From Mesostigma viride (taxonomy: Eukaryota > Streptophyta > Mesostigmatophyceae > Mesostigmatales > Mesostigmataceae): a DNA stretch of 64,000 nucleotides. The DNA is taken from assembly GCA_009746045.1 (NCBI GenBank), contig RPFO01000154.1, positions 6,831,038 through 6,895,037 of the forward strand. Reading direction: 5' to 3'. Below, in pieces: positions 23,501 to 57,235 of this stretch. Made by a program: the position numbers and the translations under genes. The number at the start of each line of letters is the position of its first letter. The stretch's first letter is position 1. The notes beneath the pieces are model-generated. The model saw only the letters and a program-made list of their open reading frames with translations. It did no database searches and was not told where the DNA came from.

Positions 23501-26500
23501 AGCGTGGCTCAGCGAGCTGTGAGGATGACATCGTCAGCATAAACTAGCAGCTAACTGTGACGCTTATCAGCGAATGGGAGGCAATTCGTGGCGAGGAGTT
23601 GCAGCACAGCATTCCCAATTGAAAACATGTTACATGCTAGTTGAAAATACGTTTCATCGCCCACTGTTTGTGTGTCCATCTCCCGGTTTGCTGACCGACT
23701 GATTGGAGCGGCTGCGTGCAGGACGGTGGTCCCCCCCTGGTGCGTGCGGCGTACAAGGGTCACCTGGAGACAGTGCAGCTGCTGCTGGCGAATGGCACCG
23801 ACGCGAGCGCCAGGGATCAGGTCTGTCAGTCTGGCACGTAGCTAGAAGAGCGGAATGCAGCGGCTTTCTGTAGGGTTGCCGTGCGAAGCGATGGATCCCG
23901 CCGGAGCACACAAGAAGCTTCTGAACCGTCCATGCCATGGGCACCCCTGGATTTCTGTCATCCAGGGGTGGGATGCCGCCGGTACCCTGCCTGTACCACA
24001 GCATGCCTGCAAACTATCAAGAAGAATTTTTTTTTTTTTAGCAGAGCGAAGTAGTGCCAGAAAGCAACTCGCGCCCATCATTGGCTATTTGTGCATATAT
24101 GTATGTGCTTCTGTGTGTGTGCTCGCGTGCGTGAGTGCACGTGTTTGTGTTTGTGTGTGTTTGTGTGTGTTTGTGTGTGTTTGTGTGTGTGTTTTGTGTG
24201 TGTGTGTTTGTGTGTGTGTGTATGTGTGTGTGTGAGAGAGAGTGTCTGTGTGCGTGTGTGTGCGGATGTGTGCATGTGTGTTTGTATGTTTGAGCATTCC
24301 TCAGCCTTGCCATGTCAAAGGCTCCGCCAGGTCGCTTGTTTCCTCCGCAAGCTGATTCTTTCCCCCCTTTCCTCATACATCAAGAAGCCAAGGGACCTGA
24401 ATGGCAATGCCAGTCATTTTTCTGACACTGTGTGGTGTAGTTTTGTGCCTTGTGGCACTGTGACGCTTTGTCTTGGCACGGTGACGCCGGAGTGCAGGTT
24501 GGGAATACGCCACTGATCGTCGCGGCCCACGAGGGCCACCTGGACATTGTGCGGCTCCTCATCGACAACGGCGCTGACCCAAACGCCGGAAACTGGGTGT
24601 GTTGTACACTGCCAGGACAAGAGCTTTTATTGATTCACTAATGTGTCAAGGTTGACTCCAGCACCGGCAGTGGGCCGGGCCCACTTCGAATGTTCCGCGG
24701 TCCAAGCCAAGTGTGTGACACTTTTCCTTCAATTTTGAGGCAAAAATCTTGAATTTTGGCTTGCGAACGTATAAATTTCACGTAAATATTACAATTTGTG
24801 GGTATTTATCTCATTGTAAGTCTCGTGTGACATAAAAACTTTACATTAGCGTGAAATTGCATTGTTTCATTGAAGAATATCATGGATACATTCGTCGCAC
24901 TTGAGACGGAGTCGACTGAATTTACTAAAGACTCGTCCAACATAAAATAAAGTCTTCGAACGTCACTTCTTATTCGTGTATCCATTGCTCCCACTCCACC
25001 AACTTCTTATTGAAAACATTAAGTGGTCGCTTAAAATGGACAGCAAAATGGCGTCCCCTGCCATTTGCAGTTCTCCGAGCAAAGTTTGCGAAACCCCAAG
25101 ACAACAAAACACAGGGAGGGTGGGTGGGCAAGAAAAAAGACCTTCCCCTTCCTCGCAAGGTCCCTAAAAAGACGGCACAACACGCTACATGGCAACGCCC
25201 CTAAAAAAATCCCAGCCTTACTGACACAACTAATGTCAGACCGGCAACTACGAAATGTCAGCAAAATGATTCGAGTCAGAACTTTTAACTACACTAGTCG
25301 CCAATCAAAGGCAGTTTCAGGCCAGCATACAAAATTAAAAGGCCTTTAAATACGACCTTTTTAACCGCCTGAACAACAACGAAAACTGCCCGTAACTAAT
25401 CACCCAGTTACAAAATCCAAACTGATTATCATCCGCTAAAAACGGCCCTAGTCGCCGGCCATGCCAGCGAAACTGGAACCCCAAGAGCGTGCCACGTAAT
25501 CTTTGCCGCCGTCAGGAACACTTCGATTGCGGCGTTCGTTCTCGCCCATTATAAGAAACTATTTTCAGAGAAATCCGATTCGTGTATCCATTGCTCCCAC
25601 TCCACCAACTTCTTATTGAAAACATTAAGTGGTCGCTTAAAATGGACAGCAAAATGGCGTCCCCTGCCATTTGCAGTTCTCGGAGCAAAGTTTGCGAAAC
25701 CCCAACTAGCTCCCCCACGCCTGGCTGACTCAAAGCCGCTCCCCTCTTTCCAAGGACCGCGTGTCCATTGAGAATGCCCTGCCGCAATGGACCCCGTTTT
25801 AACACCAGCAGCTGTGGATGCATTGATGCACTGTTATAGGTAACCACATTCTCGCGAATTGACCCTTTGCAGGGCCCGCCACCGACCCCAAAGAAGGCCT
25901 CCCCTCTGATCGGCAACAGGAGTTGTTGTTGTTGCGAAGACAAAGCAGAAGACACAGCGATCAAGCAATTACCGAAACCCCAAGTTTCGTTTCTCACTAT
26001 ATTTCGCCACGACCCCTTTAGGAGAGCATCGTCCTTGACAGGGGGCACACCCCCGCACCTACCATGCTAACAGATTTACCGTTAGGCATATAATCAAGGC
26101 CGCATATCAGCCCTCACCCCCAGCGCCGAGACCGCGCGCCAAACAACGGTGTGAGTGAAAATATTTTTAAATTTATTAAAATTATCGCCACGACCTCAAC
26201 TAGTCCAACCCGGAGCGCAAGCATCCCCAGGTACGAACCAGCCCAAGGCAGGCCAGCCAACGTCACAGAACCTTAACCCGAAGCGCAAGCATCCTCAGGT
26301 ACAAGGCTGCCACGCAGGCCAGCCCTTCCGTTTCGACAAGCAGATCTTCCCCTTCATATTCGATCTGAATATTGCACTAGCGCAGCCCAACCTCCTGCGC
26401 AGATTCCCAACCATCCGGACCCAGATCCAAAGTGAGAATCAGTCCGGACACTTGGCAGCCGCTGTGACTTCCGTGAAACCGGAAGCTCAGGGGCTGCCGC

Positions 26501-29500
26501 CTGTCTGTTAATTTAATTAAGCCCTGCGCCCGAGCGGGCACAAGGCCGGGGAGGCGTCGGCATTCCTTGCATCACCATAGCCTCGGCCAACGCGTGCCCA
26601 GCGTCATGCAAGAAAAAAGACCTTCCCCTTCCTCGCAAGGTCCCTAAAAAGACGGCACAACACGCTACGTGGCAACGCCCCTAAAAAAATCCCAGCCTTA
26701 CTGACACAACTAATGTCAGACCGGCAACTACGAAATGTCAGCAAAATGATTCGAGTCAGAACTTTTAACTACACTAGTCGCCAATCAAAGGCAGTTTCAG
26801 GCCAGCATACAAAATTAAAAGGCCTTTAAATACGACCTTTTTAACCGCCTGAACAACAACGAAAACTGCCCGTAACTAATCACCCAGTTACAAAATCCAA
26901 ACTGATTATCATCCGCTAAAAACGGCCCTAGTCGCCGGCCATGCCAGCAAAACTGGAACCCCAAGAGCGTGCCACGTAATCTTTGCCGCCGTCAGGAACA
27001 CTTCGATTGCGGCGTTCGTTCTCGCCCATTATAAGAAACTATTTTCAGAGAAATCCGATTCTTGCTCCTTGCTTCTGCTTCCAATTTCTGCTGTTCTGTT
27101 TTGGACTTCTTCCTCTTTGGATCGATGGACATCGCAGGTGCCCACTTTGCCACATCATTCCAACTCTTTCCGTCCATCAGAGTCACCACCTTCTTCACAT
27201 AGTCCAAAGGCATCTAGAACTTGCCCCTATGCAACTTTCCGCCCTCTGTCTCTTCTGGAAAAAACTTCATGCAAACGTCCCTCCATTTCCGATCGTATCC
27301 ACCTACCTGCCCGTACAACTTCACCTCCTGTAACTTGGTATACTTTTGCTTTTCCCTACTCGCATTGGCCCTTCTCATGGTGTTCTCGGCCCACCCATCA
27401 ATCCAGAAGCACTCCGGTGCTCCGTGTTTCTGTTCCCCGTCCATAAGTCTCATCCACAGCGTAGGCTTCTCATAAGGCTCTTGGCTCTGCGCATTCGCTT
27501 CCACCCCTTCAGACTGAGCAGCAAGTTTAGCTGCAGGACCGAAGCCCACCGCAGCGTTCGCCCGCACCACATCATTACCTGCGCGTAACCAATCGGCACA
27601 TCAACGACGGACTAAAGTCAACGTAGATAGATTGCAAACGAATTAAAAAAAAAATTCAGGATACATGCCACGACCAAAACAGCGATTTCCTCACCCTTTG
27701 TTATTCCTTTCGGAGCTCGAGTAGCAGCTGTCTTGGGTCGAGACGAGCCGGAAGACTTGGAGGGCGCGGCAGGCTTCTTCCTCCCCTCAGACGTCGCTCT
27801 GCGAGTTGACCCTCCTGCCCCTCCACCCCTTGCCCTTCCATCACCCCTTCGCCTCCCTCCATCTTCCTCCTCCTCGTCGTCATCCCCTCCTCCTCCTCCT
27901 CCTCCTCCTCCTCCTCCTCCTCCTCCTCCTCCTCCTCCTCCTCCTCCTCCTCCTCCTCCTCCTCCTCCTCCTCCTCCTCCTCCTCCTCCTCCTCCTCCTC
28001 CTCCTCCCCTCCTCCTCCCCCTCCTCCCCTCCTCCCCCTCCTCCCCCTCCTCCCCCTCCTCCTCCTCCTCCTCGGAGGAGGATGATGATGACTCGACTGG
28101 CTGCCTTCGAAGCTCTTTCTTGGGATACTTTGAAACGCGCGTAGGCGCGGAAGGAGCGACAGGCCGGGCAGAAGCGCCAGGCTCAGCTTCATCTTCGTCG
28201 TCCGAGATTTGAACAACTGCCTTTCGAAGCTTTTTGGAAGGGTGTGACTCCGGCTGCGGCTGGACAGACGGCCGCTGCCCACCCTTCCCTTTGTCCCGCG
28301 TCTTCTGCGGTGACGACTTCTCTCCCCCCTTAGACGTCTTCTGCGGTGACGACTTCTCTCCCCCCTTAGACGTCTTCTGCGGTGACGACTTCTCTCCCCC
28401 CGTAGACGTCGCTCTGCGAGTCGACCCTCCTTCCTTTCCCTGTCCCTCGCCTCCCTCGTCCCCATCCGAATCTCCTTCCGCGTCATCCTCAGCCTTCCTC
28501 TTCTTCGCCAATGACGTCCACGAGACGTCAGGCATCTTCCCCATCCGAACCAGTAAGTCTTCGAAGCCATCCAATGACTTCTTTCCGCCAAAAACGACCA
28601 CGATGGGACGCAACTCCTCGAAAAACTGCGTCGCTAGCTCGATAAGCTTCCTGTGGTAACCGGAAGCTCGTTCGACAGTTGTCTTTTTTGGAGGAACCAT
28701 AAAGAGGTCATGGTCACCCCACCAGAAGTCCTTGAAGGACGTCCACTTGCGGCCGAACTCACCATCCAAATTCAGGATTCTACAGCACGGTAGTGGCGTC
28801 AGGCCATCGTCTTGCCTCGCGAAAGTGGATGGGAAGCCCTCACCGTCGCCCACCGCCACCTCCGCCGCCACCCTCCTCACAAATGCCTTCTTCCTGTCAG
28901 GGCCGCCTTTAGGGAGACTATGAGAAGAATACCAGACGGTCATCTTATCCCAGGAAATGCTGCGCCAGTTATACTCAATCGGCTCAGCACTTTTCTCTTC
29001 CACCTTCTCCCCCCCTTTCCCTGCAACTTTCTCCTTCGCCTCAACACCGCCTCCTTCTTCCCTTCCCCTCCTTCCATCTTTTTTTGATAGTGGAGATACA
29101 AGTCCTTGTCCAGAAGGCCGTGCGAACCCTTCATGCTGAAGTTCGGAGCGGTTTTGTCGAGGAGATCCACTAGATCGATTTTGCTATCCATCAGATCCTT
29201 TCTCGGAATCCTTAGGTGATTGGCAAGACCTTCGGACTTTAAGAGGTAGGCGACATTGCGCGTGATGATGACGGCCTTCTCCCAAAATGCAAGGAATCGA
29301 TCGACGACGTCCTTGTTCCTTGGCATCCGCCCAAGTAGTCGACAGCCGAACACCTCTTCAAATAAGCGAGAAGCCTTGTACTCCATATCAGCCCCCCCCT
29401 TACATTCGCCATCCAAGTCGGGCTTTTCCTGAAACTTAATAAGGATGAATTGGCGAACGCACTCAAGTACGTCCTTGGCCAACTCCACCAACTTTGACAG

Positions 29501-32500
29501 CTTTTCGGGCCCAACCTCCCCACTCATGATGCATTCACACACAGCGTCCATCATCGGAAACGACGCCAGGTTCCTTACAGACGTCCAGGACACCTTTTGC
29601 CCCTTCTTGGTGCCCTCGGCGTTAGCGAACCGGCATCTGAGAGTCATAGTCTCCTCAGAAGCTGGTGTGACGTCATTCTCATCATCCGGCCTGGCCTTTG
29701 TGAGGCGCAGGAAGGTGTTCGCCAGAACTCGATTGTAATTTGAAATTTGGGAAGGTTGGGCCTTGTTTTTTTTCCGCTCGCCTTCTTCCTCCCTCAACTC
29801 CCCCTTATCCTCCTTACTCCCCTCCAAACTCCCTTCCCTCCCGACTGATTGTTTGGTGGCCGGCAGGATGTACGCCAGCAGGTTCGTGTAATGGCCATCG
29901 GGAATAAAATGCCCTTTGCCCTGCTTCACGACGCCGTGCAAGTACAGCCTGTTGTAATTCCAAACATCCAGAAGCGCCTGCCCAAGCGTCCGATCCGCTA
30001 CCGCCTGATCTTCGGCATTGGCGCCCTTGGAGATTTCGAATAGGCGATCCAGCTTCTTCTTCCCAACCTCCTGTCACGAACAGAGGAACGAAAAATTGAC
30101 ACACAAGAACAATTCAAGGGTCGACTTGCAGCGTGACGTTATGAACGCACGGGAGCGCGAAAAATGGTCTTCAGCGCCGAAATCGGTAAGTTAGGGTCAC
30201 TCTGCGAAACCACCCCAGAAATATGTCGGGATGAGAGTTTGACTGCCATTGTCGTTTCTGTGTGCGACTTCCCGCATTTATAATGCATGATAAAGGAAGA
30301 CTTTTGACATGGTCACTCCACAGTGCGACCCTTACTCGACATAACACGACGAAGTGGTGGAACTGCAGCGTCACCATTGCCATAGATAGAACTACCACTT
30401 ACAGATATTTCCGGGAACTTTTTACACTCGTCCCAATTTGGAAGAAGGTCGGCCCCCCGAAGCAGAATGACGTTCGTTCCCCCGTACCCAGTATGGAATT
30501 GTTCCATGAGGGATGAGAAAAGTTTAGCCGCCGCGGCACTGTCCTTCGCGTTCTCAGACGCTGCCCCCCCTTCACACATTAGTTTCTTAACATGTGTCAC
30601 ACCGGGCGTCCATTCCCCCTCCAATTGCTTGAAAGACTTTAAACCCTTGAAATAGTGGTTTCCGTCGACCACCGCATATCGAAGAACGAGATATTCGCCA
30701 TCAGGATGTTCTCGTGAAATCTTGGGTCGAATGCCTTTAAGGAGGCCTGGCTTATTAGGCTGAAGACCTCCCTTGGTTGAAAATCAAAGGGCAGAACGTC
30801 GTCTTGTTCCCCGACTCGTGCATAGGTCCGGAACTCAACACCTCTCTTGAGGAAAGAAGCGGTGGACTTGGTTCCAAGATACTTCTCAATCTCCTTGTCG
30901 GACAAGGGGCGAAAGTAACGCGAGCCCACGAACTCCGCGTCAGTCCTAGCGCCATGGCATTTTTTCAGCCAATCCCGGTAAGGGCCGGAGGACGTGATGT
31001 GTTTGGCGAAGAGGCTTGGCTTGGTTTCCGCAAGCGCTTGAAAGGCGAACTGCCACACAGGGATGCACACCTTAAAATGCAAACTGTTTGTCTTTGCATT
31101 CAGCAAGATGCGCCCGTTCTCCCTGAACACCTCATCGCTTAGCAACCGCTGCCTCATGTTGTCAGGCAAAATCAGCCCGTTGACGGTGTGAATGCGCATG
31201 CTATTGCAACCGGTATCGATGAAGTCACTCGGTCGAATCCAACGGGATTCCCGCACAGCATTCGCGTCCCGAATGGCTTTGTCCCTGATCTCCTTCTCGG
31301 AGTCCACGGTCGTTGCCATCTTCCACTCTTTGATGATCGGCTCCTTGTCCACCTTTCCACTACTCGTCAGGATCCCCTCCTTGAAGAGCTTTGAAAGTGC
31401 TTTCAGAAGCTCAAGAAAAGGGGAGAAGGTAGGCCACTTTAATATATCCGACGCCGGCGCCTTGCCCCTGGCTTCGACGTAGTTAAGCATCTCCTTGACG
31501 AGTGCAAAAACGGCATCATTGCCGGCCAACCTTCCGTCACCGTCTCCTTCCCCCTCGGCACCCTGAACGAAGGCATTGACGAACATGAGACAAGAAAGCA
31601 ATAAATAGTTTAACGTATGCATATAGTCCGCGAGCGTAGGAAAATCTCAGAGTAGGGTGCTAAGAACACAGAAGGTAAAAAGGGTCACTCCACGGAGCTA
31701 CCCCTCTGAATCTAAATCACCAAAAACGCACCGCTTCCTTTTCTCCCGCCTTCTTCCCCTTCTTTCCTTTTCCGCCTTTCTCCCCCTCGCCACCCTGGAG
31801 GAAGACATTGACGAAGATGAGACAGGAAAACAATAAATAGTTTAACGTTTGCAAATAGTCGGCGTGCAGACAAAAAATACCGAATAGGGTGCAAAGCACG
31901 GAGAAGGTAAAAAGGTTCACTCCACAGAGCTACCCCTCTAAATCAAAAATTCCGCAAAAAACGCACCTCTTCCTTTTCTCCCGCCTTCTTCCCCTTCTTT
32001 CCCTTCCCGCCCTTCTCCCCCCGGCCGCGTCATCCTCCATTTCCACCCCCTTATCCTTCCCCTTCTCCTTTTTATCCGCATCCCTCTTCTTTTTGGACGC
32101 TTTTGCCTGACCCTCAAGCAGCTTCGCCCGTTCACGAGCCCTTCTCTTGAGATCCAACTTCATGAACTTGATGACCTTGTCCACCTTCGCCTCCGTGTAC
32201 TCCTTTGGTTTCCACTTGAACTTTTCGGTGCCCTTGGACTTGACTTGGAATTGACGAAATCATAGGCCAGGTCACCGTTGAAGGTGTCAGATTGGATTGC
32301 GAAATCGGCCGCCGCCTCAACGCGTAGTTGGTTGAGATACTCGCGAAACTCCCCGGCACCCATCGTAACATCCTTAGGGGGCTTGCCTAAGATGAGGGCG
32401 CCAATATCACAGATAGTCTTCACCTTATTCTTTCTGTCAATAAGCTTCTTGGGATCCTGGAATGTCGTCGTCGCCTTTTTTTTAGCCAACTGGAAGGTAT

Positions 32501-35500
32501 ACCAACAACACACAACATACACATGAAGCGAAATGTATTAAGAAGAGTAATCTGAACTCTGGCATCCTAGCTCTGCAGCGCGACCTTCAGCGTTAAAAAC
32601 TTAAAAAACATTGTACAAACCTTTGCCTTCCCCTTCCCCTTCGGAGTTGGCTCGGGCTCTTTTTCTTCCTCCTCCTCCTCCTCCTCGTGCTCCTCCTCCT
32701 CTTCCTCCTCGTCCACCTCCTGCTCCTTCTCCTCCTCTTCCTTCTCGTCCACCTCCTGCATGAAAAAAAAATAATAATAATTCAGACGATGACATAAAAA
32801 AAACGAGCATTAATTTTGTTTTAACGTTGCTCTGCGGAGACCCCAACCCTAAGCTTGAACAGTAAAATGAAACAAATTTCCTACCTCTACGTTCTCCGTC
32901 CCCATCCCTTCGACCTCTTCGAAAGGTTGATCGTCATCCTGCAAGACGAAACGTGCGTTCAGATAAATATACAAAGTCAGTCAAAACAGGAACTATTTCT
33001 TGAATATCCTATCTTCACAAATCGACCCCGAACCTTTAGCGGCATTTGCTTACCTCCGGTTCCACGCTGAAGGACTTTGTCCCTCAAAACGTGGAATGTC
33101 ACCCTCCTGGCGGGAAGGAGAGAAAGAAATGCGTTCATCGTTAGTAACAATTTTCAACAAAAGAAATACACAACACAAATCTAAACGGACTGAATAAAAA
33201 TGTACACAAATGTCAATAATTACCTCAATGTCAAATCTCCACTCCCGCAACACTTGTCCGATCGGCCACATCTCAGATGGAGTTGTGTGGCTCAGTTCGT
33301 TTTCGAAAAACGTCCGAAGAAAAAACAAGTGAGATAGCATGTCCTGACTCCATGATTTCTCGTTTATGTTCGCCGTCACTAACGACAGGCAGTCGTCGAT
33401 CCCCTTGTACTCAAGCCATGCGACAACCTCCTTTCGTGGGGGCTCATACTGTCCGGCCATGTCGAACTCCCCACTCTGACGAAAACGCAGGATCTCATCC
33501 TCGCACAACTGAAGAAACAATTCAACAGCTCGACTCGGAAGAATAGGGTCTGGGTTCACCCTAAACTGCGCCATCCACACTGAATACGACGAAAGGAAGT
33601 GCGATCTAACCCCATCCAAATCTTCAATGACATTTGTGCCAGCCTGAACAACTCGGGAGATACCGAGTGGTCCATGGCGACCAGAAAGTCGCCGAAGACA
33701 TCCCAGTCGAACTGCGCATCCTTGAACCCTTTCTTCAAGAGCAGATTGACATCGATTTCCGTCAGCGGGGAGGTGTCCCAATCCTCACCTGTCTTCCCCT
33801 GCTCTAGGACCTGGTACATTTCCCACCTGCAGACAGATATGATGATGTCAAAATACTCGTGTGACAATGGGTGCTGTCTCGTGTCCTTGCAGTACTGTTT
33901 GGTCGCACAAGACAGCTTGATCCAGACGAGCAGGCTTCGAGGAACATAAGCTGTAACATCCGCTGCGTCGGGTATCGTTGACCCGCACTCGGTAACAAGC
34001 AACTCAAAGGTGTCGAAAAGAGATGCAATTCTTTCCCCTTTAACCTTTTGCCTCGAAGGCTCCGCCCCATGACTTCGAACAAAAGATCACGAAGTGTTGG
34101 ATCACTCCAAGGGTTCATCTTCTCATCAGACCCGACTGAGAACCTCTCATGCCAGACACCGTCATCGATCGCAACTTCGATCTCCTTCGACACAAAGGTG
34201 CTCAAGAACGACTTGGCGTCATCGTTCAGATGTTTTTCGTAAGTCGTCAACCATGACTTCCAAGTTTCCAAGCCCCTCAACTGGATCGGCTGCACACAGG
34301 TCCACAAAACGAAAAAAAAGCATAATCGGAAAAAAAGTTTAGGGTCACTCTGCGAAGTGACCCTTCATAAAAAAATCTCAAACAGAACGAAGGACTAACT
34401 GACATGCACTAAAGCGGCGAAAAAATTATTAGCTCACCCGCAATTTCTCCTCCCCACTCCCAACCTCGGCGTTCCCCTGAGACTCTGTCTCATCTCCCCC
34501 TTTCTTCCTCTGGATGCAGCAAGACAGAGGAAAGCATACTCGTTGAAAAAGTTTAGGGTCACTCTGCGAAATGACCCTCCATAAATTAATCACACATGCG
34601 AAGGAAACGGCAACTCAGAAATGAAGGACAAATGAACAAAGAACAAAGGCGAAAAACACAGGATTACTTATCGCTCACCTCCGTTGTTGTCCCGCTCTTC
34701 TTGGGATCCTCTGACTTCTTTTCGTCTGCCCCCCGCTTCCTCTGAAATCAAAACAACAGGGAAAAGCATACTTGTTGGTTCAGGTTAGGGTCACTCTGCG
34801 AAATGACCCATTCATGGTCAACGAGCTTAGCAGAGATAAGGAATAACGAAACCGTTAAAAAAAACACGCACACTAATGGGGGTAAAAACTGTTTCTCACC
34901 TGAGACGGCTCCGTACCCTCCTTCTCCGAGACCCCCGCGGTCTTCCCATCCACCTCCGTCGACTTTTCTGCAGCCTGCGCCTTCCTGCGCTCCTCCTCAA
35001 GTTTGGCTTGGTATTTCAGGCGTGCCGCCACACCCGCCTCCATCATCCTCTTCCCCTCCTCCTGCACCTTCCTCTTCGCCTTTGCCTCCTCGTCCTTCTT
35101 TTTCCTTTCCTCATTCGCCTTTCTCTCCTTTTCGTCCCGCTCCCACGACGCCCTCCTCTTCCTGCGCTCCGCCTCCTCCATCTCCGCAGCTTCCATTTCT
35201 GCCTGCTTCGCCTCTCGCTCTGCCCTTTCCTTCTTCACCCATTCCCTCTGCTCCCTTTCCAGGAGCTCCTGGGCGGCCTTCCGTTCCTTGTCCTTTTTCT
35301 CCAGATTCACCAGATCTTCGGCGTGCTGCGTTGCCTGATCCAGATAAGAAGTCAGAAGTGCCATGCGGTCATTCCTTCTCTTTCTTTCCTCCTCCGGAAG
35401 ATCCTCCAGTGGCCTTGGGTCTGCCTTGTCCCTGTCCTCCATGCTGATCAGGAGGTCAATGTTCTTCTGCAGATCACGCAGGAACCGCTCATGGTCATCC

Positions 35501-38500: not shown

Positions 38501-41500
38501 GGTGGGGTGCTGGCACGCATGGATGGTGGTGGTGGGGTGCTGGCACGCATGGATGATGGTGGTGGGGTGCTGGCACGCATGGATGGTGGTGGTGGGGTGC
38601 TGGCATGCATGGATGATGGTGGTGGGTGGCTGGCACGCATGGATGGTGGTGGTGGGTGGCTGGCACGCATGGATGATGGTGGTGGGTGGCTGGCACGCAT
38701 GGATGATGGTGGTGGGGTGCTGGCATGCATGGATGGTGGTGGTGGGGTGCTGGCACGCATGGATGGTGGTGGTGGGGTGCTGGCATGCATGGATGATGGT
38801 GGTGGGTGGCTGGCATGCATGGATGGTGGTGGTGGGGTGCTGGCACGCATGGATGGTGGTGGTGGGGTGCTGGCATGCATGGATGGTGGTGGTGGGGTGC
38901 TGGCACGCATGGATGGTGGTGGTGGGTGGCTGGCACGCATGGATGATGGTGGTGGGGTGCTGGCATGCATGGATGGTGGTGGTGGGTGGCTGGCACGCAT
39001 GGATGGTGGTGGTGGGGTGCTGGCACGCATGGATGATGGTGGTGGGGTGCTGGCACGCATGGATGGTGGTGGTGGGGTGCTGGCACGCATGGATGGTGGT
39101 GGTGGGGTGCTGGCATGCATGGATGGTGGTGGTGGGGTGCTGGCACGCATGGATGGTGGTGGTGGGTGGCTGGCACGCATGGATGATGGTGGTGGGGTGC
39201 TGGCATGCATGGATGGTGGTGGTGGGGTGCTGGCACGCATGGATGATGGTGGTGGGGTGCTGGCACGCATGGATGATGGTGGTGGGGTGCTGGCACGCAT
39301 GGATGGTGGTGGTGGGGTGCTGGCATGCATGGATGATGGTGGTGGGTGGCTGGCACGCATGGATGGTGGTGGTGGGTGGCTGGCACGCATGGATGATGGT
39401 GGTGGGTGGCTGGCACGCATGGATGATGGTGGTGGGGTGCTGGCATGCATGGATGGTGGTGGTGGGGTGCTGGCACGCATGGATGATGGTGGTGGGGTGC
39501 TGGCATGCATGGATGGTGGTGGTGGGGTGCTGGCATGCATGGATGGTGGTGGTGGGGTGCTGGCACGCATGGATGATGGTGGTGGGGTGCTGGCATGCAT
39601 GGATGGTGGTGGTGGGGTGCTGGCATGCATGGATGGTGGTGGTGGGTGGCTGGCACGCATGGATGGTGGTGGTGGGGTGCTGGCATGCATGGATGATGGT
39701 GGTGGGTGGCTGGCACGCATGGATGATGGTGGTGGGTGGCTGGCACGCATGGATGGTGGTGGTGGGTGGCTGGCACGCATGGATGATGGTGGTGGGGTGC
39801 TGGCATGCATGGATGGTGGTGGTGGGGTGCTGGCATGCATGGATGATGGTGGTGGGTGGCTGGCACGCATGGATGGTGGTGGTGGGTGGCTGGCACGCAT
39901 GGATGATGGTGGTGGGGTGCTGGCATGCATGGATGGTGGTGGTGGGGTGCTGGCATGCATGGATGATGGTGGTGGGGTGCTGGCATGCATGGATGGTGGT
40001 GGTGGGGTGCTGGCACGCATGGATGATGGTGGTGGGGTGCTGGCATGCATGGATGGTGGTGGTGGGGTGCTGGCATGCATGGATGATGGTGGTGGGTGGC
40101 TGGCACGCATGGATGGTGGTGGTGGGTGGCTGGCACGCATGGATGATGGTGGTGGGTGGCTGGCATGCATGGATGGTGGTGGTGGGGTGCTGGCATGCAT
40201 GGATGATGGTGGTGGGGTGCTGGCATGCATGGATGGTGGTGGTGGGGTGCTGGCATGCATGGATGGTGGTGGTGGGTGGCTGGCACGCATGGATGATGGT
40301 GGTGGGGTGCTGGCATGCATGGATGGTGGACATATCGCTGGCTGAGGACCAACACGAAAAAAGAAGCCATATGGCTGGCTGAGGACCAACACGAAAAAAG
40401 AAAACATTTAGCTGGCTGAGGACCAATACGAAAAAATACTCTGGTCGCTCGCCGAGAACCAACCAGAAAAAAGAAGCCGTGTCGCTGGCTGAGGACCAAC
40501 ACGAAAAAAGAAAATATATTGCTGGCTGAGGACCAACCCTAAAAAAGAAGGCATATCGCTGGCTGAGGACCAACACGAAAACAGAAGCCATGTCGCTGGC
40601 TGAGGACCAACCCTTAAAAAGAAGGCATAGCGCTGGCCGAGAACCAACCAGAAAAAAGAAGCCGTGTCGCTGGCTGAGGACCAACGCGAAAAAATAAAAT
40701 ATATTGCTGGCTGAGGACCAACCCTAAAAAAGAAGGCATATCGCTGGCTGAGGACCAACACGAAAACAGAAGCCATGTCGCTGGCTGAGGACCAACCCTT
40801 AAAAAGAAGGCATATCGCTGGCCGAGAACCAACCAGAAAAAAGAAGTCATGTCGCTGGCTGAGGACCAACACGAAAAAACAAGCCATATCGCTGGCTGAG
40901 GACTACAAAAGGGCATCATAGACGCCACCCTGCTCGCGCGAGTAAGTAGGGGTTCGTTGCACATTTACCTGCACGCATAAATCAGGAAGGGGGAAAAACG
41001 GCATTGAACAGGACCACGATTAGAATTGGGCTAGCTATAAACTAACCTGACCATTTGAAGGCATAGCAACAAACATCAAGCTCGACATAGAAAAAGACTG
41101 CGCTGTTGATGCACCTTCTTTATCAGGGCGGCGAGTTGAGGCGTCATTTGTCTCACCATCTTCAGGCAGCGATGATTATTACAGAAAACAGCTATGGCGG
41201 CAGCAGTGGTGGTGCGGTTTTCGAAACCCAACAGCTGTTGTGACCGATCGTCCGTGGAGCGACCCCTGTCAACGGCCCAGCGTAACCGGCGTTCAGGACG
41301 GAAAACGTGGCATGCTCGCCATTCGGCCAACGAGGCGAAACGCGGGTCTAGATTATTCTTATTGACAAACCGCGCATGCGGATTGGACGACTCACAATGT
41401 GACGTAATCCAAGCGTCGGTCTTCACGGTCCCGCAGGTATAAAAAGGAACAACACGCACAAAATTTGACGCGGCAATCGGGATGTTTGGATTCGGGCGTC

Positions 41501-44500
41501 ACCATGCTGCTGTGGATAACTACGTCCTCGATTCGATTCTAGCGTGAGCCCGGTGCTTTTTTGCACGTCGTCTGAGAGATCATCTGTCATATTTCCACCA
41601 GTCGTCACTCTGCAAAGCGACGTGCCTACTGCCACGTGGTATGGCAAAAATTTCGAATGCAGAACTTTTGGGGTATACAAATAAATATATTAATAAATCG
41701 TGTATAGTAAATGTATGGGCATATATACTAACATTCTAGCCAATATATTTAAACTTTCTGCTGTCCATATGCTTATTATTATGATTATTGTTATGAATAT
41801 GATATATGTTCTTTCTAATATTTATTAAGGGGACGGTCCCGGCGCGAATATTTTGGCGCCGAAAAATTCGCGGTACCCGTCCGTACCGTGAAAAAGTGGT
41901 GCACGGGGCGCGCACCCCTACCGGAGCTGGCCATGGCGACGTGCTTTCAGGCAGAGTAGAAAAAGATAGCTCGCGGAATGCAGAGAAACTGAGCGAATCT
42001 TAAAGACGATGAGTAAATGATACTACTTCGTAGCGGAGTTCGCGTTTTTTGCAGTGTCGATGATTTTATTGATGACCATCGCCACGGGGGTCCAATCTGA
42101 TGTTTTCGTCGAGAGGAATAAATTAGAATGCACGCTGGCGGCGGTGATTGTCAGGTTTTATGGGCTTTACCTAGCGTCAAGGATGCGTTTAAATCGTTAT
42201 TGGTAAAGCTTTAAAAAATTTGCTGGGTTTCGGCAAGATTTCCGTCCTGATCGGTAAGACACTCTCCAGGCTCGCGGGATGCGCGTCTTATTATTCCATG
42301 GAAGGTTGTTCTTTCTTGCGCCGCTGGGCGAAGGACAATTCCGGTAATGGTACGATCGTGTGATCAACGTGACCCTATGAATGTTTCGCTTCCTTTATGG
42401 GTTATCAACGCAAGTTTTCGGCTTTTTTCCGTGCAGTTAGCGCCAGGTATAATGCCATTCCGTGCTGCGCATCGCCAGATTCCTGGCACCTTTCAGTGGT
42501 TTTTATGTACGTTGCATGGCTGGGATGTGTCAAAGCGTGACCGTGGCATATCGTCAAGTTGTCAGGGATTTGCTGAGTGGTTTCTTGGAAGGAGATTGCT
42601 AACAGCACTCAGTTTTGTGTGAATATTGACGCGGCCTTTCTTAGCAGAGGCTTCATTGTGGTTAGAGGCTCACAAGCTTGAGTTTGTTTCTTGGCAAACA
42701 ATTGCGCTGGAAAGAAAGGTGGCAGTGGTTTTTCTGAGGGGCATACTGCATGGGTGGAACTGCACGTAGGTAGGGGTTCTCGTTGTCTTGTTGGCCTTTC
42801 TCCCACTAAAATGGGAGAGCCCTAATTCATATGCTAGCAAGGCAAGGTAACCATGGTAAGAAGCCTTGGCAAGCAGCATGTATGATAATTCTGCTTTCTC
42901 TGTGGACTGTCTGTTGTTACCCTTGTTGGGCAATTAGTGGATATGGCTTTCTAGGGTGTGTTTGAGCTTGGTTTTGGGATGATGCCCACACCATAAACCT
43001 GAAATATGCTTTAGAAGTGTCGGCTAGGCATGTAGAGCTACCTGCCTCATTGTTGTGCACACACGCAACAGGTTGCCCGTGTCGAGGTAAGGCAAGGGCA
43101 CATGACGTGCCCAGCCACCTCCTTGTACATTGTGGTCGAATTGGGCATGGTCAGGAGCCTTTTGGATGGCATAGAAAGGGTTAGTGTGCCTTAATACTCA
43201 CTAATGCCTTCCTTAGCGTCTGCACAGGTGGCCAACTGCCAAAATTAATAACTGCTACAGCTGAGCTCAGAATGCCACCAAACTTTGACAGTGCCTTCTA
43301 TGGTCATGACAGAATTTGACTATTACTTTTTAGGCCTAATTGATGTGTTATGAGTGTGTATGGGGACGCCCCGCCTAAAAAAGCGTATTTTTGGCCCAAA
43401 AATTAATAACTCAAAGGGATGTGCTGATTTTGTTGATCCAATTAGGTAGAAACCATGTCCCATGACATTTTTATGTGGGTATTACTTTTTTCATGCAACT
43501 GGTTCTCCCACTGTTCTGGGCAAGATGTGCCCCGGACAGCGTTTTTTTCTATTTTTAGCTCATAGCCGGTGTATGGCTGGGGGTAGTACCCCCAACAAGT
43601 GGTGGTATGCATGCCCAAACATCATGTTTATGGTCCCCAAACATCATTCAGTGGTTGTCAGTTGCATTTCTGTAGTTATTAGGGGGGGTAAGTTTCGATA
43701 TATTTCTATGGGACCCTCCCCTTAAATATATTTTCCTTTTTACTGCTAACTTACTGTACTAGTTTGGAATATATTCTGATCAGGCACTCCGCAAAGGTGA
43801 AAACCTTTGCGTTCAGTGCCGGGCCGCGGAAAACGTGGAAAACGCGATCTGCAAATGAATCCGACCGGAATCGAACTGGGGACCTCTCGCTGGAATATAT
43901 ATTTCTAGTACTAGATATACTAGATAGATTAATGCCATGAATACAAATTTAAAATATAGATAAAATTCTATGACAATATAACATATAATTATGCACATCA
44001 CTCTTTTTTACATACAATGAGTAGAAAATATTTAGTATTATAGATAGCTAGTCTGTCCAGTTCATATTTCTTCTATCTAAACAATAATGATTGAAATAGA
44101 AATAGTACTAAATACTAATCAAAACTATGTAAATACCAATAAATACTTTCCATATTTCAGCTACATAATTAAACAATAATGATTAAAAAATTATGTTCAA
44201 TATTCAATTTCATTTATTAGAATCTTAAATAATTCCATGAATACTTTTCGTGTTTCCTGTCTTGGTGTGATCATCCAGGTACCTCGGCAACGACACGACA
44301 CGCCTGAAAAATGAGCCGGGAAGGTGTGTTTCCAATGATGCAAATCTTGGTCGCGCTGCAGCGCGACCTCTTCTCAGTTCCATACGAAAAGGCCTTAAAA
44401 CTTGTGTGTAACTTCGCAAGGGTCGCGCTGCAGAGCTACCAAAAATTTCATGAAGTTTGACTTTCTCTATATTTGCTTCGCAATGAGATTCTTTTGTATC

Positions 44501-47500
44501 TGCGAAGAAGGTGGGGTCATTTCGCGGAGTGACCCTGCTAATATGTTAATTGTCCGTGAATTTCTTTTTGTTTCTGCAGCACGGGAACGGGTGTTTCTTT
44601 CGCCAACCTCCTCCTCCTTGCGTGGCGGCTTTGCTAATCGACTCAATGCCCACAACTTGAGCATCGGGACACCGACGCCCCTTGCAGCGGATCTGAAAAA
44701 CAGCTCGAAACGAAATTTCGGGAATGAGAACCGCAGCACCTCGCCCGCCGTCAGGAAGCCAGCGAAAAGGCCTGGCCAGTACGCCGAGAAGAAGTCTGTT
44801 GTGGGGACTCATCTTGCTGATGAGGCGTACAACGTAGTTCATCACATGAGGAATGAATCTACCAAGCGGGCCTCTTTTGAGGAGATTGTTGATGGCTTCA
44901 ATAAGAGGGCTGACGAGCTCAAGGCGGAGCATTTTGACATTCCGGTGGCCAAGCTTTTGATGAGCAGCGGCTTGCACAACTGTCGAGGTCTTGGGTGGCT
45001 CGGCTGATCGCCCTTTTTGACGACCTGTCGAAATCCGACCATGACAGAGACGTCAAGATCATTTTGGTGTCAACTCTTTTTTGTGGGGACGACATCGAGA
45101 AGGAGTTTTCGGCGGCAGAGTTGGAGAGAATGACGGGTGTCCCCGCGAAGACCATTCTCAAAGTTCGGGCGATCAGAAAGCAACAGAAGATGGAGTTCCT
45201 GACGCGTGCGCTGGCGCGAAAGAAGAGGAAGTTGCCCCAATTTGTAATCGAGTCGATCGCGCAGGCTTGGACTGATGAGGAGAACTCGCGCGCTTCGCCC
45301 CAAGAGAGGGATACCATAAAGACGCACGAACGAGTTGGCAATCGTGCGATTTTGGTTGGTGTCCAAGGGGCCTACTTCTACCTCACCTCGAAGGAGGACA
45401 TATATCTCAAGTTTTTAGCGGAGCACACGTACTGGGACAAGAAAAGTCCGCAGTATGAGAAGGATGTCGGCATCCATGTCGGATATACGACTTTCTGCAA
45501 GTACGCCCCCAAAACCGTCAAGGGGAAGTGGAAGGAGAGAAACGTGTGCGCCTGTGAGACGCATACGGTCATGCAGTCGAAGGTAGCGGCATGGACTAGG
45601 TACTGCAAGGCGAAGCACGGCAAGAACTGCAAGTGCGGCGACGAGTGTGAGGGATGTTTAAGGGCGAGATTGCCTGACGGCACGTGCGGGATGTTCGAAA
45701 GCCTGCACACGACCGAATGGGTGAAGCACTTCCATTGCCGTGTGGCGGAGGCGGATGGGGGTAGTGAGCTGGGGGTGGGGCAAACTCGGCGAGAAACGAA
45801 GAGGAGGGGGGACAATAATGTGACGGAAGATGAATGGCAGGGGCAAGACCTTGACGATCTTGAAATAAATGAGAGGATCGTGGAGGATGAGGAAGGGGTG
45901 CCAAGGGTAGGGGACCCATCCATGGAGGAGGGGTCTGTCTTTCGCATTCTGAAGAGGGCATGTATGGAGAACTCGTGTCCCGAGTCCCGGTGTGGCATCA
46001 AAGACTGGGTGTTGTGTGACCGGGACAAGAATTCAACAGAACTACTAAATTGGTTCAGATACGTGAAGAAGGAGGTAGTGGTTTCCCGACCGGCAGGGGA
46101 GGTAAGCGTGTTTGGATTTTGTGACGCAATTATTTCGCAGCGTCATTCTGCAGCGCGATGTTAATTTAAAGGCTTTTCTGATACTTTATGAATATGTTAC
46201 TTGCAAATTTACTTCATCCCTTGGTTAAAACAGGACGCGACCGATCGGCGGGTCCCGGAGAAGGTCAAGCGGCCCGTACAGGAAACGATGAGGTCAACGC
46301 CCGCGCAGCTGAGGCTGGCGATTATCGAGAGTTGGGAGGACTTTACCAACCACTGCTTTACGTCATGGTGGCAGTCGGCAACGATCAAGGACCGGGAGAG
46401 GAACATGACTGAGGGGGATGTGCTCGTGCATGGAGATTGGGCCGAGAATTACGAGAACAACAACTACGTCCAACTGCAGTCGCAGTACTTTCACAAGACG
46501 AGCTTTGTCCTCATGCCCATGATCGTGCGATATTTGCACAATGGTGCGATGGCAAAGCGAACGTTCTTTTTTCTCGGGGAAGCCAAGATGAAGCGGGGAG
46601 AGCGGGCGCTCGTCTACGCGCTGAGGACAATCATGGAAACCCTGCGCGGACTTGGTGTGGGGGTGAAGAGGATGTTCATGTGCTCTGACAACTGCTCATC
46701 CCAGTTCAAGTCCAAGTACGTGGTTAACGCCGTCTTCCGCCTCCTCATGCAGGATCCCGACTTGGAATCCTTCGAGTACCACTACTTGGGTGAGCAGCAC
46801 GGGAAGGGGGAGGTGGATGGTCAGGGAGCGAAGTTCAAGTGCATTGTGAGGAACATGCAATGCATTCCTGAGAACCAGGGCATCGTTACAGGGCGCCAGA
46901 TCGTCAAGTACATGCGGGACAGCTGGGAAGGAGGCAAAACCACGAGCAGGGAGTCGGCCCGCGCTCGGGCAGAGGGCGTCCACCGTCATTTCTTTCATTT
47001 TCCTGAGGTGCGAAACTCAATTTTTCTTGAACTTGATTGAGGTATCTCTGCAGAGTGACCTTTTGCCCATTTGCATTTTATTATTTGATAATGCTAAAAG
47101 AACTGGTATGAATTAGCGTCTTATATAGTGAAAAATGCATGCAAAGCACTTTCAAAGGGGTATCTCTGCAGAGTGACCCTTCATGTGTACTTGATCTATT
47201 GACACATACCAACTTTCCGTTTCTGACATTCTCCCTCATTGCAGGACCTCGACTCCGGCGCCCGTATGATACCGACGCGTGTCGAGGCCATCAAGCAAGC
47301 GCACTGGTGGCGCCTGGACAAGTCTGACCCGGGGCTCCTGATGATGAGGCGTTTTTCGTGCTACTGCCCAGCCTGCCTAGCTAACAGGTGGGAGGAGTGC
47401 CGGACCGAGTGGACACATATCGAGGAATTTAACGATGAGGGCCAAACGATGAAAACTTTCCGCCTGATGCCGCCAACGCAGCCCATCCCTCCGGTTCGCC

Positions 47501-50500
47501 AGCTGACGCGGGCGGAACTGCTGAAGGATCAAAGGGATGCCATTGGCAGGCAGATGCGCATGTATGATTACATCGCAGTTCCGTCAGACAGAGAGGACGT
47601 GAACCACAATTCCGCCCACCCTTTTTGGGTGATGCAGGTGGTGAGGGAGGCCTCAGTGCTGGAGAAGGAGGAGGTTAGGTGGGTTGAGGGACAAAACGGA
47701 CGGCAGAAGGAGATTTTCTTGCCCGGCCACGCCGTTCTGGCGGTTCGGCTGTGGAAGCGAGATATGCATGACCCCCTGCATTTTACTCTGGATTTGGCTG
47801 ATTGGCCGGAGTCCCGCCCAGCCGACCTGGTCGATTGCTATCTGTGCATCTCCGCTGCTCTTCCGCTCCAGTGCATGGTCCTTGGCAACCAAAGGCAAGC
47901 CTACGTTGATATGAGCAAGGAGCTTGACGCGTGGCTAACCGCTCTTGTACGCAACCAGCAAGCCCCGGAGGGGCTGCCACCGGCTTAAACTTTCGGGGAC
48001 GCTCCGCAGCGCCACCCCTACGGATCTTTAAGCCTGGGCTTTATTCGCCTACGGTTGGGACAGTGTTTATTCGTGTTTATATATTTTTGGAGAACTGTTT
48101 TTTCATATGTTACAATAGATGACAAGTGGCTGGGAACATTGTTAGCCTCGGTAGTGACAAATTTTAGTATATTTCCGTGTCGAAATGGCGAGTATTTTAT
48201 TTAACTTGTACAATAATTTTTCGAATTACAAATTTATAATTTGGTTTGACCTAAAAATCATGTCGTCACTCAAATATGTAGTTGCTGTGTAGGACTTTCC
48301 GTCTGCTGCAAATTGGTTCGTACTAATTTCGAATGTCACAACAATGTTACTGTACTAAGGCCTCTTTGGTAGATGTCTTAAAACACAAATTCGCTCCGGA
48401 AGTGCCAAAGTACCTTGCTTGTAACCGGACTAGTTACGAATTGTGATTGGAAGGTTGTCCCCTACAACCACAAGGAATAGAGGGGACGCTCCGCAGCGCC
48501 ACCCATACGACAGTCCGGACCGGGCTTTGCTGAAATAATTTTCTCACTCGCAACTTAGCCATCAAACTCACTTTTACGATGGAGCGCGCCGATGTTTTTG
48601 GTTCGCAGCATACATATGTGCATGTCGATAAAAAGGAGCATGCGGCCAACATGTATGTTGAAATCGACTCCCCCCCCACGACTTCCCACGCTCCCTGCGG
48701 GGACCGTTTGGAGGTTGGGGTTCAGGTGTCATTGCGTTCGGAAACGGGATGATCGACCTGATGCCCCCAGATTCAGATTTGGCGCCTGCCCCCCGTGTTC
48801 CGGGTAAGGCCAGGGTGGTGCAATGCCTCCAGAAGAGGGCACGGAAATTTCGCCCAATGTCTCGGCTGTGCGCCTCCGGGCTGAGGCCCAGCATGAGTTC
48901 TTGAATGCGGCGGAAATAGGTGGGGCCGTATGGGCCCCCAAACAATTTTCCAACGAGCCTCCAAATTTCGTGGGGGACTTGTACAAGGGAGCGTACAAGT
49001 TTCGTGACATTGAGATCGATGGATGGGGGTCATTTCTCCAGGAAAAGTGAATGCCGGTCCCATTTGGCAAATATAATCGATGATTAATTCCATGCAACAT
49101 TTTGCGTTGGTCAAATGTGTAAATTTGCATTATTAATCGATTCAATAAAATTATGGGGGTGGGTATACCCACCATTTGATGGTTGAAAGTACTACTAGCT
49201 TCGTCGATTAACTCTTCTCAACATGGTCCTCTAGTCGACTAGGAATGTACCAATCCATCAGGGTATCGAGAAACTTGTTATGCCGAAACACTCCGGTCGA
49301 AAATTTCGTGCCACCTGCAGGCAATCAAAAAGCGCACGCGGACCGACGGGAAAGAGTAGTTAGTCACGAAATTAAAAAAACGACAAAAAGTGTCACACGC
49401 GGCTCGGCGGGAAAGAGTAGTTTGTTACGAAGTTAAAAAAACGACGAAAAGTGTCACACTTTTCGGAACATTCGAAGTGGGCCCGGCCAGTGGGCTGCTG
49501 ATGCATAGCATACAACCCCTCCGGGAGGTTTTTTCTTACTGTTGACTTCACGATAGGGGTAAGAGTGCGACCTGATGGCTATGCGTTGTATGGGTAGTAG
49601 CCTGAGTCGCAGGTGACCTCCATTCGGGGAAGGGGGGCATGCTTCCAACCTGCCACCTTTGCCCGGGAATGTATAGGTATCATTGCCTTGGGGTTTATTT
49701 TCATGTGGATGTTGTTACCTAGATATCAATATTCATGTGGATGCTATTACCTAGATATAGATATTCATGTGGATGTTATTACCTAGATGTCTATATTCAG
49801 GTGGATGCTATTACCTAGATATCTACATTCATGTGGATGTTATTACCTAGATGTCTATATTCAGGTGGATGCTATTACCTAGATATCTACATTCGTGTGG
49901 GTGTTATTACCTAGATGTCTATATTCAGGTGGATGCTATTACCTAGATATCTATATTCATGTGGATGTTATTACCTAGGTATCTGTATTCATGTGGATGC
50001 TATTACCTAGATATCTATATTCGTGTGGATGTTGTTACCTAAATGTCATTATTTTTGGATGGCCTGGCTGGCCGGCTGCTCCATTCGTCTACTATTGTGG
50101 TTAGAGTGCAGGCAAAAGGAGGTGCAGGCGAAAGGAGGGAAAAATAATGTATTTCAGGCCGCAGCAAGTACTTCTGAAATGATATCTTGTTGAGCCGTTG
50201 AGAAGCAAGCTGCAGCTCTATGGTGACCTTGTTTGTAACAACAATGATCCGTGGGGAGGTGTGGCAGCCAGGGTCTCCGTTTATCCTTTGCGCCGGTGGC
50301 CTGTGTTGCAGGCAGTAAACGTGGCAATTAAGGCGCTGAAGGCGGTTGAACATCCACAGGCCCATGGCCTTCATCTGTGGCATCATAAATTCAAGATGTG
50401 ATTCTGTGTGCATTTCTGTGACAACTCCATGGAACAGTATGGGAGCACCCCGCTGATCGCTGCGGCGGTGAAAATCCACCTCGACGTTGTCCGGCTCCTC

Positions 50501-54930: not shown

Positions 54931-55164
54931 TCCAGAAAGGGCTGTTCACTGAATCATTTACGTCCAGCTCAGTTCCGTTGGTTTGGTTCCGCGCGGTAAC
55001 TTGCTGTTTGGGCCTTGGATTTGTCAAGTCTGGGTACCGGCTGGTGTGAAGCGACACGCTGGATATGCTAGTATATGCTAGTACTTACCCAACCCTACGA
55101 ACGTCACATGTGGCTGAATATATTTACCTTAGCATGAATTATGTTCAGTCTGCTTGACGTCTGC

Positions 55165-56700
55165 AACCGGATCCTCAGTGCTTGCCGCCGCACCGCCGCG
55201 ATTTCTGTCTGAGTGGCAGCACAAATTACCGTATTATGCTGTACAAAAACAAAGGTTCCCCTAACGACCCCGCCAACTACCGGCAAGTCTGCATCCAGAG
55301 CGCCGCACTCAAGTTATTCATGCGCATGATCCTCAACCGCCTTCATTCTGCTCTCCGGACCGTCACCGCTAGGGGGAGGTCAAATGGGCTTTCGCCCTGC
55401 CACTGAGGGCGGAACACCGTCATGGCCATCTTCGTCGCGCGCCGGCCGCCTCCTCGAGGAAATCGCTCTCCTGCAACCTGGTGAGTTTCCCGCCATCCTG
55501 ATCTTCGTCCGAACCTCATCAAGGCTTTTCAATTCTGTCCTCTGGGCCGCTCTATTATGGGCTGTCCTTGCTCGTGCTCGCGTCCCCACTCCCCTGATTA
55601 CCGTCATCCGCACGCTGTACGAGGGGTCGACCACGTCGGTGCGCACTCAACACGGCTTTACCCGGCCGGCATGTCCACTGCAGACCGGCGTGTGGTGATG
55701 AGGGTTGCGTCCTGTCGCCGTACCTGTTAATTGTTATTGTAGTGGATAATGTTATGCGCCAGGCACGTGCCCGCTTTTACTGCTAGCATTGCAGGCCGTG
55801 CCCCTGGCCTACTAAGCTAGTGATCACGAACGAGCTTGGGGAAGGGGGGCCGACTAACCAGCAGAATTTACTAGCTGACCTCATTTATGCCGACGACATC
55901 ACGCTCATCGAGAAGCCGGAGTCTGCCCAACTTTGGCTGGACCGGCTCACCTGGCGCTCGAGGCTCGGGCGGTTGGTCTAGCCGGAATCAGCCCCAAAAC
56001 GCCGGAGGCCCTGGCCCGATCGGCATGGCAGGGCCCCCGCCCACACGGCACACTCCGCCTCTTAGACGACACCGAGGTCAACTATGTACCCTACTTCAGG
56101 CCGCTTCAAGCTGCTCGGCAGTAACTTGGCTTCCCGACTGCGAGGACGACCTGACGACTCAGATCGGCATGGCGTGGGCGCAACTGCAATGATGAACACC
56201 GCCGCTGGTTGGTGGAGCAACCCCGCCCTACCCCGGCCGGATCGCCAAGCGTGACTTCTTCAAGGATCGTCATTCTGACAGACGATCCTGACCTACGGCG
56301 CCGAGACCTGGACACTGACTCAGGAGCTGGATCAACGACTCGACGGCAACGTCACCAAGATGCTGCGCAAGGCCCTTCACATCCCCTTTGGTTTGCACAT
56401 TAGTAATGAGGATTTGTACGCTGATTTGCCCTATATGTTTCCCACATTCTTCCTTGGACGTGCCCAGCTAGGCCAAGGCGCCTGTGCGCGCAGGCGCCTT
56501 GGCCTAGCTGGGCACGTCCTGGCCCGCACAGATCAGGAAGACACATCAGATAGACTAGCCAGTGGCACCAAGCCCGCCCAGCCTGGGCGTTATGTCCTCA
56601 CCTGGCGTGCCCCACTGAGGCCGCGCCGGCAGTAGGGCCGCCACCCGCCCGTGGACTTTTCGTGATAGACTCGGCATGGACCGTGTGCTACCCTAGACCG
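55165..56700 (+). pseudogene. Degraded RT-type LINE reverse transcriptase
   Basis: Short frames in several phases preserve pieces of the same reverse transcriptase as 3141-4913: KNKGSPNDPANYRQVCIQSA, the region around the first palm aspartate (altered, near 55500-55550), LIYADDITLIEKPES at about 55875-55920, and the thumb and tail. Many insertions of 1-5 bp, often duplicating neighbouring GG/CC bases, break the frame. A 60-bp fold-back lies at 56458-56517. Confidence 0.8.
56458..56517. repeat. 27-bp perfect inverted repeat inside a LINE copy
   Basis: The arms 56458-56484 and 56491-56517 (starting ACGTGCCCAGCTAGGCCAAG) pair perfectly around TGCGCG. Other LINE copies have only one arm, so the second is a local fold-back duplication. 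Confidence 0.9.
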
Positions 56701-56739
56701 GTGACGGGCTCACACCCGGGCAGCCTCCTGGTTTGTCTG

Positions 56740-57235
56740 TAATATGGCGGTGGTGCCCACAACCGTGTAACTAGGACCTAGATAGCTTACATCATCCATT
56801 CCATCCCATGTTCCCCTCCCACTGAGGACTTATGCTCATGTGACGCAGTCACGTGTCTATTAATTAAATAAGTAATTAATGTTCACTCTATCATGGACAT
56901 CTGCTACACTAGACGTGACGGGGTCACACCCGGGCAGCCTCCTGGTTTATCTGTAATATGGAGGGAGATGGTACGCAAGGATCGATGGCAAGTAGTGATG
57001 AAGGAGACCACCCCCAAGTCTGTGGGGGCTCCGCGTGTGACCGGCGCGTATGGCATTCATAGCGATTCGGGCCGCAGTGCCCACAGCCCTGTAACTAGGA
57101 CCAAGATAGCTTACACCATCCATTCCATTCCATGTTCCCCGGCCTCCCACTGAGGACTTATTATGCTCACGTGACGCTGTCACGTGTCTATTAACTGGGT
57201 TAATTAATTAATTTAATTAATGTTCAGTCTACAGT
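56740..57235 (+). mobile_element. Two LINE 3' ends in tandem
   Basis: The first 3' fragment ends with a hairpin near 56838 and a TTAAT tail to about 56880. The second starts near 56893 (ATCTGCTACACTAGACG) and ends with the hairpin near 57168 and a TTAATTAATT tail. Confidence 0.75.

Follow-up and report, generated by a model that had tools for sequence, protein, structure and literature searches.

What occupies 24.8 kb of an ankyrin gene in Mesostigma viride, and how could an element of that size recognise and handle its own DNA? The window analysed here is a stretch of 64,000 bp (C1690:6831038-6895037), and the genome searched was the 439.9-Mb assembly that contains it; the available text of a 2019 paper gives a genome size estimate of 329 Mb (PMC7027972). 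The interval 24673-49488 of the window is a DNA transposon, structurally complete, with a transposase gene, a large partner gene on the opposite strand and a family-specific set of palindromic sites, for which the partner is a candidate reader.

A giant DNA transposon in an ankyrin gene

The original prediction of a transposon was based on 25-bp inverted ends at 24673 and 49488 with AGTG outside each of them. The coordinates and the perfection of the ends were verified, and AGTG was seen at both junctions. A random perfect pair is expected about 3e-7 times in 26 kb. A chance inverted repeat was considered and dropped. The two ends are organised as follows (strand is given where one applies, with the source in brackets):

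24669..24672, left target-site duplication AGTG (sequence reading and copy comparison)
24673..24697, + strand, left 25-bp terminal inverted repeat GGCCGGGCCCACTTCGAATGTTCCG (sequence and genome copies)
24713..24725, + strand, left subterminal repeat GTGTGACACTTTT, which begins at position 41 of the end (sequence)
49335..49459, right subterminal 61-bp repeat, present twice, each with a TGTGACACTTTT-like sequence (sequence)
49464..49488, - strand, right 25-bp terminal inverted repeat (sequence)
49489..49492, right target-site duplication AGTG (sequence reading and copy comparison)

The GTGTGACACTTTT repeat is present at both ends and points the same way with respect to the tip. Ankyrin-repeat coding stretches, read by eye from translations and in one case also found by regular expression, flank the element at about 24500-24599 on the left and about 50.4 kb on the right. 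Since the two have the same orientation, the element lies inside an intron of an ankyrin gene, in agreement with the original prediction. The flanks of this copy are otherwise unique in the assembly, in which no empty insertion site was found.

Comparing the first 76 bp with the genome returned 395 candidates, and all of the best 40, which were scored, had 100% identity; thus, at least 40 loci share an identical left end, and the other copies expected of a mobile element do exist. The 20 bp outside the tip differ among eight loci (window included). An assembly artefact as the sole origin of the ends was also dropped, because many loci have different flanks. For each of 20 left ends, the 10-kb stretch lying 20-30 kb further inward was searched for a right tip: seven of these stretches contained one, giving copy lengths from 20,374 to 29,705 bp, and 13 did not, some of them being N-masked or devoid of element sequence. 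With small extra stretches added to the 10-kb ones, the set of copies with both tips read comprised ten copies and the window. An exact 4-bp target duplication was present in 10 of these 11, with varied letters (AGTG, TTAC, AAAA, TTTA, ATAC, TGAG, TGTA, CGCT, TCAT, and CCAT), against one copy, on contig C1, that lacked it. In several copies, the left duplication is immediately preceded by GC, which may reflect an insertion preference.

The many copies and their duplications confirm the element as a DNA transposon, and the near-identity of the copies suggests that it may have moved recently. A long terminal repeat (LTR) or viral origin was dropped, as no such genes are found among the open reading frames (ORFs) of the element. 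Given its termini, its target duplications, and its transposase gene, the best reading is a giant cut-and-paste DNA transposon: the transposase would bind the ends and the subterminal GTGTGACAC repeats, cut, and re-insert the element with a 4-bp stagger.

The transposase and its partner

The two genes of the element are placed as follows:

27255..36474, - strand, partner gene, multi-exon, 5' end uncertain (exon limits from splice-site letters)
30405..31562, - strand, partner exon with the motif YLVLRYAVVDGNHYFKGLKSF (sequence, copies, and comparison with family 2, described below)
44311..47988, + strand, transposase gene, four exons by comparison with the relative P0001
44311-44323, 44579-46101, 46234-47007, and 47245-47988, + strand, transposase exons

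The description of the element as complete-looking holds for its ends but not for its genes, both of which are frameshifted in the window copy. Exon 2 of the transposase is interrupted near 44.96 kb, and the partner breaks frame several times, by mutation or assembly error in either case. A Mesvir1 gene model, presumably of Mesostigma viride, agrees at 98% with the part of the transposase exons used as query. Exons 2-4 are unbroken and stop-free in two of nine matching loci (L016 and L019), in a comparison where several loci are truncated at the edges of the stretches retrieved and which covers the gene from exon 2 onward, exon 1 (13 nt) lying outside it.

A profile search found 72 relatives of the transposase among 5274 candidates, mostly metagenomic, with one from Klebsormidium nitens (P0020, KFL_005820050); the latter is annotated with leucine-rich repeats in one protein, either a fusion model or real. 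Conservation was assessed on 29 relatives hand-chosen from P0001-P0074, with P0001 numbering. Residues D581, N585, Y586, Q595, D665, Q670, and K704 are invariant in all 29, and at least 90% of the sequences share H702-G703, G705, and D708-G709; we infer D581, D665, and D708 as a putative catalytic triad. A Pfam scan of the 29 sequences gave no credible match for any of them and no KDZ core model up to an E value of 1. The same relatives yielded one weak match to the KDZ-associated CxC7 (E 0.11) and DUF6597 in two sequences (best E 2.4e-4). Separate Pfam comparisons gave DUF7869 matches below the cut-off (E 0.026 and 0.12); the two DUF results were recorded and left unused. No relatives were found in viral contigs by tblastn, the transposase exon DNA matched no phage record, and a sequence comparison with the PDB gave nothing credible.

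The partner gene is divergent from the transposase gene and has at least 12 exons predicted from splice sites. Its central exon is open for 444 amino acids in the copy on contig C1446 (L040). The partner gene of this copy also hosts an unrelated LTR-retrotransposon-like insert (L040, about 5759-10000) with gag-like and integrase-like ORFs, as judged by eye. Searching the genome with the 444-residue exon gave 98 rows (best 95 of 1057 candidates scored), which by hand count correspond to 71 loci of the same family (family 1) and three second fragments; the other 24 rows belong to a second family (family 2). Among the listed family-1 loci, 39 of 71 cover residues 1-444 without a stop, and the listed family-2 rows have 56-57% identity to the family-1 exon. 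In a pairwise alignment, the partners of the two families share 54% identity, with YLVLRYAVVDGNHYFKGLKSF unchanged. Their nonsynonymous divergence (dN) is 0.33 and their synonymous divergence (dS) about 2.3, a saturated value, so the partner protein is under constraint; the estimate was taken between families, family-1 copies being too alike for one within the family.

By eye, YLVLRYAVVDGNHYFKGLKSF resembles what we take to be the N-terminal domain of ParB proteins, a likeness that sequence comparisons with Pfam and the PDB neither back nor name; for the partner, too, nothing credible came from the PDB. No relatives of the partner were found by tblastn in viral contigs or prokaryote genome contigs, and a PHROGs search gave nothing credible. 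The stitched partner had no match at E 0.001 in a set of 5.8 billion proteins (best 8000 candidates), a negative result that is weak because the full-length product would exceed the length range searched. Weak RecQ_Zn_bind matches (E 0.011-0.022, below the cut-off and unused) fall at the corresponding place of the partners of both families, in the pieces L040:2-787 (family 1) and L042:6281-7009 (family 2).

Palindromic sites and their respelling between families

The palindrome of family 1 is 22 bp long, GGGTC-N12-GACCC around CTGCAG, and sites were scored against two spellings with up to five mismatches. The 24.8-kb element contains 25 such sites and the 39.2-kb flank none (Markov expectation 0.2 and 0.0, respectively), in line with the shared cis-motifs reported originally. 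When six mismatches are allowed, there are 30 sites in the element and three in the flank (0.6 and 1.8 expected). The 25 sites are distributed as follows:

30118..34809, nine sites in partner introns (starts 30118, 30194, 30310, 31682, 31914, 32565, 34342, 34556, 34788)
36646..37067, seven-site array upstream of the partner, in steps of about 55-58 bp (starts 36646, 36761, 36819, 36877, 36935, 36990, 37046)
41602..41623, single site between the two genes
44348..47179, six sites in three transposase introns (starts 44348, 44420, 44514, 46140, 47040, 47158)
47996..48504, two sites 3' of the transposase gene (starts 47996, 48483)

None of the 25 is centred in a modelled exon. Fifteen are intronic, with 10 of the 14 modelled introns holding at least one, and the other ten comprise the seven of the array, the intergenic one, and the two 3' of the transposase. 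The nominal probability of this exon avoidance is 3.5e-8, a value that assumes independent sites, which is untrue of a tandem array.

Genome-wide, GGGTCACTCTGCAGAGYGACC with up to one mismatch gave 99 rows on the forward strand and 95 on the reverse, with some sites appearing on both, and the reversed-pattern control gave none. Most of the exact rows (56/67) are no more than 30 kb away from a listed family-1 partner match, where about 1% would be expected, and a listed partner is found within 35 kb of 36 of the 40 left ends.

Family 2 carries a spelling of its own. On contig C1967, a second partner lies within a 10-kb stretch together with the palindrome variant GGGTCTCGCTGCAGCGAGACCC: five sites with up to three mismatches form an array upstream of that partner (396, 503, 611, 720, and 787), with a weaker sixth at 346, and further sites lie in the non-coding stretches. 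In both families, three sites come just after the central partner exon. The intron located at the same place in the two families aligns with a score of 21.5, against 9.1 for shuffles (standard deviation [sd] 3.0), and with the sites excised the score falls to 14.0 against 10.3 (sd 3.2); that is, in this one intron with hand-set limits, the sequences align above shuffles only while the sites remain. Across the genome, the family-2 variant occurs 1149 times when one mismatch is allowed, with a control of 0. On at least seven contigs (C446, C644, C817, C25, C224, C1424, and C2), a P0002-type transposase lies divergent from the second partner at 9-12 kb. The ends of family 2 are 24 bp long, GGGTGGTCCCACGCGGAATGGGGT, in a pattern similar to that of family 1. 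Tips were searched in three copies: both were found in C25, one in C446, and none in C1424 at the guessed places. The C25 copy is 23.75 kb long, with CGGC on each side and one mismatch in the left tip.

A third family was reached through a search for P0003-type transposases (134 rows, best 63 of 1485 candidates scored). In 14.5 kb of one copy there are a transposase and a large tandem-repeat block, with no partner match and no GGGTC-N12-GACCC. The block, which includes GAGGATTCAGGCTCC units, adjoins the transposase at L047 (contig C1:2248000-2257900). This stretch fits the idea that the sites may accompany the partner.

Possible roles of the sites and relatives of the element

Because the palindromes are restricted to the element, absent from exons, respelled along with the diverged partner and arrayed upstream of it, we infer that they could be read by a protein of the element. 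This protein would be dimeric, most probably the partner, which carries the ParB-like motif, and by binding the palindromes it would recognise its own family. With an array lying upstream of its gene, the partner could control its own expression, and the spread of sites over the element suggests that 25 kb of DNA could be marked or compacted so that the distant ends pair. We hold the chances evenly balanced that the partner is a site-reading protein, acting on expression and element shape through the candidate site GGGTCACTCTGCAGAGYGACCC. The fuller proposal is more tentative, although we prefer it to its rivals: a partition-like self-recognition, in which a ParB-like protein and about two dozen co-diverging sites may allow the element to locate and mark its 25 kb of DNA, to regulate it, and perhaps to compact it, so that the distant ends are paired.

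In bacterial ParB-parS systems, a protein with a VVDGNH-type motif is encoded close to a cluster of palindromic sites, and further sites are scattered in the surrounding DNA. The arrangement described here is similar, as far as sequence alone can tell, with palindromic sites near and around a gene with a ParB-like motif. It differs in belonging to a eukaryotic transposon, in having about 25 sites per element, and in lacking a ParB profile match.

Several observations weigh against the main reading, that of a partner binding family-specific sites. Neither the family-1 nor the family-2 partner has a Pfam ParB match up to an E value of 10, no credible Pfam match, to a methyltransferase, a transposase or any other family, was found for the partner or the transposase, and the PDB profile search of the partner returned only a chance-level cytochrome match. 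The DPP[YFW] signature, typical of N4/N6 methyltransferases, is not evident in the partner pieces of both families that were read. Eleven of the 67 exact genome-wide rows have no listed family-1 partner nearby. Near-palindromes in general show no enrichment (14 in the element and 18 in the longer flank); what sets the element apart is therefore the specific word. Finally, the third-family comparison covers a single locus and 14.5 kb, and a partner could lie further away.

The strongest rival, which we nevertheless consider unlikely, sees the partner as a DNA methyltransferase, active or degenerate, that also has a ParB-like domain, the palindromes with their CTGCAG core being modification sites that mark the element against or for silencing. 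The absence of a methyltransferase family match speaks against it too, and a lookalike stretch (DLFMVPPK ... PIVVVFGG) differs in family 2 and presumably lacks the usual catalytic letters of methyltransferases. What favours it is the layout, shared with Sola1-1_Ec32 of Ectocarpus, a 21.5-kb Sola-1 element that encodes a ParB-like and N4/N6 methyltransferase protein opposite to its transposase; in the available text, its authors propose that proteins of this kind bind the transposon encoding them and modify it (PMC12477816).

Two further explanations seem to us more doubtful still, and equally so. The palindromes could act in RNA, as intronic hairpins that aid or control the splicing or processing of element transcripts. 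The 15 intronic sites and the 10 of 14 occupied introns agree with this, but the ten sites outside introns do not, even if the upstream array with its seven sites may lie in an unmapped 5' intron; family 2 has sites in an upstream array as well. Alternatively, the transposase or a host factor could bind the sites, the partner being a passenger with another role. The transposase, like the partner, does diverge along with the sites between families 1 and 2; however, the ends and subterminal repeats, where it must bind, carry other words (GTGTGACACTTTT), and the third family has a related transposase and no such sites in the stretch read.

Concerning the relatives of the transposon, Sola1-1 of Ectocarpus, known to us by description, appears to be the nearest described one in duplication length and layout. 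Both are giant algal DNA transposons with a transposase and a long gene on the opposite strand, whereas the Ectocarpus partner has a recognisable methyltransferase domain and none was found in the partner of the present element, and family-specific palindromic sites are not described for Sola1-1_Ec32 in the available text (PMC12477816). Set side by side by description, the Sola1 element SrosS of Salpingoeca rosetta has the same 4-bp target duplication and similar inverted repeats (32 bp, compared with 25 and 24 bp in the Mesostigma families), but it is only 3.3 kb long against 24.8 kb (PMC6875170, available text). KDZ giant transposons are alike in reaching up to 30 kb and in their accessory genes and nested insertions, as given in the accessible part of the source (PMC12477816), and differ in their transposase, whose model matched none of the 29 relatives. 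The D-D-D pattern, together with the 4-bp duplication, is also reminiscent of Sola.

The tips of EnSpm/CACTA elements begin CACTA- or CACTG-like, which GGCCGGGCCC and GGGTGGTCCC do not fit. Hence, the original statement that the element matches no standard family stands as regards Pfam and the KDZ core, while the element may belong to a known superfamily, e.g., Sola1. Likewise, the system cannot be called undescribed as a whole, since the available text of PMC12477816 describes giant transposons of algae (Ectocarpus) that carry an accessory gene on the opposite strand. The palindromic sites are another matter: no description of family-specific palindromic sites of giant transposons was found in the open-licence papers searched, which is weak evidence. 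What appears to be new here is the candidate recognition-site set and the co-divergence of the sites between families.

Two tandem arrays lie inside the element:

37104..40329, 30-bp minisatellite, about 107 copies (repeat analysis)
to 40903, following the minisatellite, 37/185-bp tandem array (repeat analysis)

The arrays (37104-40903) are open in several frames on both strands, which probably explains the long ORFs there. Elsewhere in the window, a reverse-transcriptase gene is located at 3141-4925 (- strand; RVT_1, E 3.3e-25), and a second, decayed stretch, whose protein fragments resemble it, lies downstream of the ankyrin exons (about 55000-56900, + strand). The ORF at 795-1733 (+ strand) has a first part that by eye is like a retrotransposon integrase, fused to a PHD finger (E 1.6e-9).

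The element bears on how transposons tens of kb long pair their ends and regulate themselves, and on why several of them carry a large opposite-strand gene. In Mesostigma viride, the likely recognition sites are visible in two spellings, in two families of one genome, so that binding, specificity, and any requirement for transposition can be tested directly.

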